NCBI RefSeq assembly: GCF_011089885.1
Contig: NZ_JAANBD010000015.1
Location: 62,001 to 126,000, forward strand
Source: Thioalkalivibrio sp. XN279
GTDB taxonomy: Bacteria > Pseudomonadota > Gammaproteobacteria > Steroidobacterales > XN24
Direction: 5' to 3'
Length of the DNA stretch: 64,000 bases
Below, in pieces: positions 30,080-33,552 of this stretch (positions within the stretch are counted from its first letter, which is position 1; every line of letters starts with the position of its first letter). Position numbers and translations under genes: made by a program. The notes below the pieces were generated by a model, which saw only the letters and a list, made by a program, of their open reading frames with translations, had not been told where the DNA came from and ran no database searches.

Positions 30080-31945
30080 ATGGAAACGATTGCAACGCTA
30101 GCGCTGCCGGACACCCACGGACTGGCCGTCATCGGGCTCGCGCTGTTCGCCCTCGTGGCCCTGACGCGACCCGCCGTGCCGCAGGAATCCACCAGCCTCA
30201 TGGTGTTGATGCTGCTGGTGCTGGGTTTTGAGATCTTCCCTTACGAGGGCCCGGGCGGCCCGGTCAGCGCAGGCATTTTCCTCTCCGTATTCGGCAACCC
30301 CGGCCTGATCACCATCCTTGCATTGCTGGTGGTCGGCCGCGCGCTGGAAGTGACCGGCGCCATGCAACCGCTCACCCGCCTGCTGCTGCGCGCCTGGAGC
30401 GGGCCGCGTTCCCTGGCGCTGGTCGTCACCCTGCTGGTGGCCATGCTGCTGTCCGCCTTCCTCTCCAACACCCTGGTGGTGCTGGCGTTGCTGCCGGTGC
30501 TGGTGGGCGCGTCGACGCGGCTGCGGTTCCCCGCCTCGCGCGTCCTCATGCCCGCCGGCTTTGCCGCCCTGCTGGGGGGCATGACCACGACCATCGGCAC
30601 GTCCACCAACCTGCTCGTGGTGACCGAGGCCGAGGCGCTGGGGCTGCCCGCTTTCGGCATGTTCAGCTTCCTCGCCCCGGCGGCTTTCGGCGCCGCTGTC
30701 GGGCTGCTGTTCCTGTGGCTCGTCGCGCCGCACATGCTGCCGGAGCGGGACGCGCCCATCCGCCAGGCTGCCCCGCGTATCTTCAAGGCCATGTTCTTCG
30801 TCGGCGAGGACAGCTGGGCGGTCGGCAAGACGCTGGCGGAGCTGCGCGAGCGCACCGGCCGCCGCATGAACGTCTCGCGCGTGCAGCGTGGCGACGGCCT
30901 GCAGGTGGCCAAGCTGCCCGCCATGCGCCTGCAGGCGGGCGACCGGCTGATGGTGGCGGACACCCGCGAGCACCTGAAGGAATTCGAGCGCCTGCTCGGC
31001 GTGCGCATGCACAGCGAGTTCGCCGGCGAGGGTGACGATCCGGGCGACGAGGCTGCGGCGGAGCAGCAGCTGGCAGAGCTCGTGGTCACGCCCGACTCGC
31101 CACTGTACGGCCGCACCCTGTCGACAACGCACTTCCGCCAGCGCTTCCGGCTGCTGCCGCTGGCCATCCACCGCGCCACGTCCACCGGCATGAGCGAGGT
31201 GACGGGCGATTTCGAGGACGCCGTGCTGCAGGCCGGCGACGTGATCCTGGTGCAGGGTGCCCCGGACCGCATCCGGGAGCTGCGCGCCAGCGGCAGCATG
31301 CTGGTGCTGGACGGGCGCATGGACCTGCCGAAGACCTCGCGCGCCCCGCTGGCGCTCGGCATCGGCCTGGCCGTGGTGATCACCGCTGCCGCCGGGTGGC
31401 TGCCGATCAGCGTCAGCGCCACGGCAGGCGCGGCGCTGCTCATCGCCAGCGGCTGCATCGGCTGGCGCGAGGTGGCCGGCGCCCTGTCGGCGCCGCTGGT
31501 GCTGATGGTGGTCATGAGTCTCGCCCTGGTCGAGGCCAGCGTGGCCACCGGCGCCGCGGCGTTCGTCGCCGACCTGTTCCTCGCCGGTTTCAGCGGGCTG
31601 CCGGCGGCCGCGTCGCTGGCGCTGGTGCTGTTGCTGGTGGCGGTGGGCGGCAGCCTGGCGCCCAACGTGGCGGTGGCGCTGCTCGCCGTGCCGGTCGCGG
31701 TGGCGGTCGCCGCGGGGCTGGGCGTGGGCCCGGAGCCCTTCGTGCTGGCCGTGCTGTTCGGCGCCAACCTCAGCTTCGCCACCGCGATCGGCTCGCGGCC
31801 CAACCTGGTCGTGGCCACTGCGGGGGGCTACCTGGCGCGGGACTTCCTGCGCGTGGGGTTGCCGCTGACGGTGCTGGTCTGGCTCGCCGTGTCTCTCGCC
31901 CTGGTGTGGCGCTATGGCATCCCCTGGGGCCTCGGTGGCATGTGA
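30080..31945 (+). CDS. SLC13/DASS family permease with two RCK_C domains
   Basis: 621 residues. An N-terminal membrane half (about residues 12-215) has the paired SNT and GTSTN motifs of the divalent-anion/sodium symporter family (AFLSNTLVVLALLPV, TTTIGTSTNLLV). Two cytoplasmic TrkA-C (RCK_C) domains follow (about 230-310 and 325-410), then the second membrane half (about 425-615) with the matching ATAIGSRPNLVV. This architecture is shared with putative sulfate or dicarboxylate permeases. The RCK_C domains suggest gating by a small ligand. No gene nearby names the substrate. Confidence 0.9.
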   Translation: METIATLALPDTHGLAVIGLALFALVALTRPAVPQESTSLMVLMLLVLGFEIFPYEGPGGPVSAGIFLSVFGNPGLITILALLVVGRALEVTGAMQPLTRLLLRAWSGPRSLALVVTLLVAMLLSAFLSNTLVVLALLPVLVGASTRLRFPASRVLMPAGFAALLGGMTTTIGTSTNLLVVTEAEALGLPAFGMFSFLAPAAFGAAVGLLFLWLVAPHMLPERDAPIRQAAPRIFKAMFFVGEDSWAVGKTLAELRERTGRRMNVSRVQRGDGLQVAKLPAMRLQAGDRLMVADTREHLKEFERLLGVRMHSEFAGEGDDPGDEAAAEQQLAELVVTPDSPLYGRTLSTTHFRQRFRLLPLAIHRATSTGMSEVTGDFEDAVLQAGDVILVQGAPDRIRELRASGSMLVLDGRMDLPKTSRAPLALGIGLAVVITAAAGWLPISVSATAGAALLIASGCIGWREVAGALSAPLVLMVVMSLALVEASVATGAAAFVADLFLAGFSGLPAAASLALVLLLVAVGGSLAPNVAVALLAVPVAVAVAAGLGVGPEPFVLAVLFGANLSFATAIGSRPNLVVATAGGYLARDFLRVGLPLTVLVWLAVSLALVWRYGIPWGLGGM

Positions 31946-31971: not shown

Positions 31972-31999
31972 TTGACCGGCGTCCGGCGACGGGTAACAT
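31972..31999 (+). promoter_or_regulatory. Sigma-70-type promoter of the trp operon
   Basis: TTGACC (31972-31977) and TAACAT (31994-31999) are separated by 16 bp. The predicted start point falls near 32006, four bases before the leader-peptide ATG. No TrpR-like operator was recognised over the promoter. Confidence 0.6.
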
Positions 32000-32009
32000 C
32001 CCTCACAGC

Positions 32010-32096
32010 ATGAACGCCGACAGAAACAGCGCGCGCGGCCACTGGTGGTGGCGTCCCGGGTCCCCGGAGGGGGTCCGGTCGCGCGCTGCCGGCTGA
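32010..32096 (+). CDS. trpL: trp operon leader peptide
   Basis: A 28-codon ORF with three consecutive Trp codons at positions 12-14 (32043-32051), ending in TGA at 32096, 94 bp before trpE. Tandem Trp codons directly upstream of trpE are the hallmark of ribosome-mediated trp attenuation. There is no Shine-Dalgarno, and the predicted promoter puts the transcript start about 4 nt before the ATG, so it is probably translated from a leaderless mRNA. A longer in-frame extension back to 31914 is possible on paper but runs through the promoter and the end of the transporter gene. Confidence 0.85.
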   Translation: MNADRNSARGHWWWRPGSPEGVRSRAAG

Positions 32097-32186
32097 AGCA
32101 GTCCACGCACCGAACCCGACTCCGGAGCCCTCCGGGGAAGGGTGCACGCGACCTCCTCCCGGACGGCTCCGGCTCGCTGGAGGAGG
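32028..32186 (+). promoter_or_regulatory. trp attenuator region with alternative helices
   Basis: Four pairings can be drawn. 1:2 joins 32028-32035 to 32080-32087 (8 bp) with the Trp codons between. 2:3 joins 32066-32078 to 32122-32133 (11 pairs with a small internal loop). 3:4 joins 32122-32129 to 32165-32172 and 32131-32136 to 32158-32163 (14 pairs, one mismatch). A fourth joins CCTCCTCC (32152-32159) to the trpE Shine-Dalgarno GGAGGAGG (32179-32186). Pairings 2:3 and 3:4 exclude one another, as in a classical attenuator. No U-run follows the 3:4 stem, so control may be Rho-dependent or translational. Confidence 0.65.
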
Positions 32187-32190
32187 AATG

Positions 32191-33548
<1,358 letters not shown>

Positions 33549-33552
<4 letters not shown>

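Follow-up and report, generated by a model that had tools for sequence, protein, structure and literature searches.

A putative leaderless trp leader peptide shared across an order, and a probable attenuator that lacks its U-tract in Thioalkalivibrio sp. XN279

Introduction

Attenuation was first defined in gammaproteobacteria, on a leader preceded by a Shine-Dalgarno (SD) sequence: the trp leader ORF of E. coli has an SD and a normal 5' UTR. The trp locus of Thioalkalivibrio sp. XN279 does not appear to follow this plan, and it raises two questions: how is a Trp-sensing peptide started when its ATG lies a few nucleotides from the predicted 5' end of the transcript, and what does the sensor control when part of the expected terminator is missing? 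In this study, we have followed up a first-pass annotation of a 64,000-nucleotide stretch of this genome (the window), which had proposed a leaderless trp leader peptide and assumed an ordinary attenuator behind it. For comparison we used relatives from the same order, collected by TrpE searches, and the upstream DNA of about 100 species was examined. All features described below lie on the + strand.

Results

The leader peptide, trpL (32010 to 32096), is encoded by 28 codons from the ATG at 32010-32012 to the UGA stop at 32094-32096 and reads MNADRNSARGHWWWRPGSPEGVRSRAAG; counterparts exist in about 100 relatives. Its codons 12 to 14 (32043 to 32051) are the three Trp codons that had been annotated, and form the predicted ribosome stall site. 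The next gene is trpE (32188 to 33552, starting at ATG 32188 or 32191), followed by trpG, trpD, trpC, trpF, trpB and trpA up to 38622, so that a short ORF with consecutive Trp codons stands upstream of trp genes, as in an attenuator. Of 100 relatives, 99 have two to four Trp codons. A close relative without the Trp run had been named as evidence against the proposal, and one congener, G002, shows such a loss: HGGW replaces HWWW, and one Trp codon remains. The other leaders, 99 of 100, keep at least two. The peptide of G002 (L004 2840-3110) is MNAEPCSARSHGGWRPGTPEGVRSRTAG, and two of its three Trp codons were apparently lost when a one-base deletion was offset by a one-base insertion, which restored the frame.

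The promoter of this ORF is well defined. A -35 element, TTGACC (31972 to 31977), whose TTGAC is conserved through the order, is separated by a 16-nt spacer from the -10 element TAACAT (31994 to 31999); together they match 9 of 12 consensus positions, with one site found against 0.0 expected from shuffles, and both hexamers are identical in the window's species (G000) and its congeners G001 and G002. The end of the -10 lies 10 nt from the ATG, and the interval, ccctcacagc, contains no SD. Judged from the -10 spacing, transcription would start at a purine, 32005 or 32007, and would therefore give a leader of 5 or 3 nt, which is consistent with the start about 4 nt before the ATG that had been predicted from the letters alone. 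The comparison of trpL upstream regions that had been suggested as a check shows the same layout throughout: the distance from the -10 end to the start codon is 6 to 11 nt in 98 of the 100 species of the order, where the choice of sites gave a mild preference to such distances, and in 38 of the 41 leaders of a first set whose selection was neutral to spacing, each promoter being the best one within the 110 nt upstream of the Trp codons and each start the first in frame after it. Recurrence of both this distance and the Trp run in about 100 species puts the layout far beyond chance. The absence of an SD likewise extends to the relatives, whose leader starts pair with 16S rRNA no better than random positions do (median energies of -3.0 and -2.8, as against -5.3 for trpE).

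Could the transcript nevertheless begin further upstream, at a distal promoter with a normal 5' UTR or by read-through from the upstream transporter operon? The 5' end is a prediction, and an SLC13-like membrane transporter gene (30080 to 31945) ends just 26 nt before the -35. Those 26 nt, however, are only 42-46% identical to the congeners while the hexamers are invariant within the genus, the spacing is the same throughout the order and the leader start has no SD, so we regard a conventional 5' UTR as very unlikely. It is instead well supported, by the conserved order-wide spacing together with the missing SD, that the peptide would be translated leaderless or from a predicted leader of 3-5 nt. 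Sequence similar to the transporter region of the window also occurs upstream in one relative (L030).

Such starts are not clearly enriched elsewhere in the genome, since the TTGAC promoter-to-ATG pattern gave 7 matches genome-wide, against 4 with a scrambled codon and 6 with the pattern reversed. On contig C27 of G000, a TTGAC promoter lies at leaderless distance from the ATG of two other genes (L256, L258), which encode a TetR-type regulator and a 76-aa coiled-coil-like protein. Outside the order, the trpE upstream regions of 80 other gammaproteobacterial genomes, nearly all from different families, had no leader with such promoter spacing. With about 100 species of the order on one side and none of the 80 sampled outsiders on the other, leaderless translation of trpL seems to be a trait of the whole order, characteristic of it within the genomes sampled. 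The leader is absent in L044, which has a related TrpE, and in L029 and L031 it is visible by eye where the script failed to parse it. A Woeseia MAG (L045) has a TrpE nearest to that of family f7 in this order, a tentative pointer to Woeseiales or its GTDB equivalent. Several of the 80 outsiders have RWRW-type peptides before trpE without such a promoter; short ORFs of this kind, with RWRW or WRW at the end (L085, L091, L093, L103, L104, L197, L226, L242), may encode trp leader peptides that are arranged differently.

Downstream of the Trp codons, the leader can form the mutually exclusive helices 1:2, 2:3 and 3:4 of an attenuator. The 1:2 hairpin, CCGGGUCCCC with GGGGUCCGG (32056 to 32078), comes from MFE folding alone and has equivalents of the form CTCTCC/GGAGAGG in relatives. 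In region 2 (32064 to 32074), CCGGAG and GGGU pair with the ACCC and CUCCGG of region 3, ACCCGACTCCGG (32114 to 32125), which is identical at 12 of 12 positions in G001; region 4 is CCGGGGAAGGGT (32132 to 32143). Nearly all relatives have a hairpin of region 3 (ACCCATCTCC) and region 4 (GGGGATGGGT), followed by U-runs. Over 100 species, the native 3:4 energies lie far below those of permuted partners (z = -21), and the same comparison for 2:3, taken as the segment just past the Trp codons with region 3, gives z = -5.4. Compensatory changes in 3:4 are many, among them CCCAUC/GAUGGG, CCCGUC/GACGGG and CCUAUC/GAUAGG. From the covariation of 2:3 and 3:4 across the order, we infer that the ancestral device was a classical ribosome-mediated transcription attenuator. 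The Rfam family Trp_leader (RF00513, cut-off 41 bits) has no match in the window, and one relative, L135, has a sub-threshold match of 21.4 bits; other Rfam matches to the leader, taken up to an E-value of 10, were unrelated and dismissed as chance. The leader as a whole folds just 1 standard deviation below shuffles, in a GC-rich sequence where chance complementarity comes easily.

The attenuator had at first been assumed to be ordinary, but its terminator is degenerate. The site of the relatives' U-tract (32144 to 32151) reads GCACGCGA, without a T-run, and among 100 species only the window's species and its sister G001 (GCCCGCGA) have no T at all in the 8 nt past the stem; the other 98 retain a full or partial U-tract, including G002 with a short one (GGGTTTTTCG). 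A sequencing error was rejected as the cause, the absence being common to two separate genomes. In the same two species, two pairs of the 3:4 stem have turned into mismatches. The stem followed by a U-tract, present in nearly all relatives, is lacking in both.

Would such a hairpin still terminate, by way of its GC-rich stem, NusA/NusG or Rho, leaving the leaderless start as the only unusual feature of an ordinary transcription attenuator? The stem keeps -18.4 kcal/mol in G000 despite its two internal mismatches, regions 3 and 4 are conserved in G001 (12/12 and 12/13), 98 relatives have at least part of the tract, and the trpL2 leader of Streptomyces lividans is reported with end hairpins and no U-rich stretch (PMC8079986). 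Against this, a terminator scan of the + strand finds no terminator-like site in G000 or G001 and one in L016, with the reservation that it misses G002 too and is therefore strict, and the stem mismatches fall in precisely the two species without the tract. We consider a U-less terminator unlikely, if far from negligible.

Loss of the U-tract has not been accompanied by drift of the leader. At four-fold sites of trpE, identity to the window is 63% in G001 and 54% in G002, whereas the leader after the Trp codons is identical at 41 of 45 positions in each of them, regions 3 and 4 together at 24/25 (G001) and 21/25 (G002), and region 5, which lies just downstream, at 15/15 and 14/15. By a binomial estimate, a match as good as that of region 5 has a chance of about 0.001 in each comparison, the two comparisons being mutually dependent. 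Leader, hairpin and downstream segment are thus far better kept than synonymous sites. These figures, to which the invariant promoter may be added, bear on the idea that this genus has handed trp control to another system, such as a TrpR-type repressor, and that the leader is a relic. In favour of a relic are the U-tract lost in two species, the two of three Trp codons lost in a third and a Trp_repressor-family gene in G000, G001 and G002, but relatives whose attenuators are intact have that gene too, and with the conservation just described we find a relic quite doubtful.

Region 5, CCTCCTCCCGGACGG (32152 to 32166), offers an alternative partner for region 4, and it contains an anti-SD, CCTCCTCC (32152-32159), which is complementary at 8 of 8 positions to region 6, the trpE SD GGAGGAGG (32179 to 32186). 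In constrained folding of G000, a ribosome at the stop codon lets 3:4 and 5:6 form, and a ribosome at the last Trp codon, with a clearance of 3 nt, yields 2:3 and 4:5 while 5:6 falls from 1.0 to 0.08. This modelled switch appears in G000 for one stall position and one clearance only; in G004 (L007) it appears at every Trp codon. Within the family, anti-SD and SD match more closely when both come from one species than when they come from different members (p 0.0012, for 7 species of which three belong to one genus; p 0.083 with one species per genus), and 4:5 pairing gives p 0.042 with one species per genus. The change in SD exposure in G000 is borderline against spacer shuffles (p 0.067), and in G001 the SD carries an insertion that weakens 5:6. 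Order-wide, constrained folding against dinucleotide shuffles shows a mean change of 0.078 as compared with 0.062, with no effect outside the family, and Fisher tests of 4:5 and 5:6 pairing were mixed, with no pairing signal in families f6 and f15. Scattered relatives from other families (L010, L023, L112 and L136, of f11, f4 and f2) have, beyond the terminator, a stretch able to pair with region 4 or the trpE SD, as in GCTCCTC/GAGGAGC of L136; such segments are not significant across the order.

Discussion

Our main reading, to which we give a probability of about 0.72, is that the window contains a leaderless Trp-sensing leader belonging to the family of ribosome-mediated trp attenuators. 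Transcription would begin 3-5 nt before the ATG, and initiation of the leaderless type would start synthesis of the peptide. When charged tRNA-Trp is scarce, the ribosome is expected to stall at UGG UGG UGG and to cover the 5' arm of 1:2, so that 2:3, rather than 3:4, would form; both of these pairings have the support of covariation. In nearly all relatives, 3:4 is an intrinsic terminator.

In this genus the output is less easily named. As a key part of the terminator is lost in the window's species, the sensor there probably works by a different route, perhaps by masking the ribosome-binding site of the gene that follows. With the U-tract gone in G000 and G001, and the leader and regions 2, 3, 4 and 5 kept, the likeliest single output is translation of trpE: with plentiful Trp, 3:4 and 5:6 would form and hide the trpE SD, and with scarce Trp, 2:3 and 4:5 would form and free it. 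Put in evolutionary terms, the genus may have been rewired: the U-tract would have been dispensed with, and a ladder of 1:2, 3:4 and 5:6 against 2:3 and 4:5 would let a ribosome stalled at the Trp codons uncover the ribosome-binding site of trpE. Other genera of the family would keep both ladder and terminator. We hold both the translational output and the rewiring tentatively, at well below even odds; the observations are compatible with attenuation having passed from transcription to translation, with folding statistics that are borderline.

Leaderless trp leaders have precedents in other groups. The trpL of Sinorhizobium meliloti (rnTrpL) is leaderless and lies directly upstream of trpE (PMC7298713), which bears out the rhizobial parallel drawn in the first-pass annotation. 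It resembles the leader of the window in its consecutive Trp codons, its alternative structures and a start codon at the RNA 5' end or immediately beside it, a position that is predicted here. The differences are that this alphaproteobacterium makes a 14-aa peptide from +1 and has a working transcription terminator, whereas the window has a predicted leader of 3-5 nt and an anti-SD segment facing trpE, and lacks the U-tract. The first-pass annotation also put forward the speculative idea that leaderless translation could couple trp control to 70S availability as well as to Trp; adding an SD to the S. meliloti trpL left peptide accumulation on tetracycline exposure unchanged (PMC7298713). In S. 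lividans, trpL1 and trpL2 are mapped leaderless trp leader peptides (PMC8079986). The former, MFAHSTRNWWWTAHPAAH, is upstream of trpE like the leader of the window, with a start that is mapped there and predicted here; the latter has no U-rich stretch, again as in the window, but precedes trpS (PMC8079986). S. lividans belongs to the Actinobacteria, where leaderless mRNAs are common, unlike the host of the window. The TrpL of Campylobacter jejuni was predicted by a search that demanded a ribosome-binding site (PMC3847290), and our literature search, with subscription papers mostly outside it, found no report of gammaproteobacterial leaderless trp leaders. Our results would add a whole order of gammaproteobacteria to the groups with leaderless trp leader peptides, so far alphaproteobacteria and actinobacteria.

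In its architecture, the leader of the window agrees with the E. coli trp attenuator (Rfam RF00513, Trp_leader), which has Trp codons, regions 1 to 4 and a choice of 2:3 or 3:4. What this genus and family add is a natural series running from attenuators with a terminator to attenuators without one, along which sensor and anti-SD segment remain under selection, so that it can be asked how a transcription switch becomes a translation switch. A parallel to the proposed outcome is found in the actinobacterial ileS T-boxes, which have SD-sequestering hairpins (PMC1262725): there an SD-hiding hairpin replaces the terminator, but the T-box senses tRNA directly, whereas the leader described here would use the translating ribosome.
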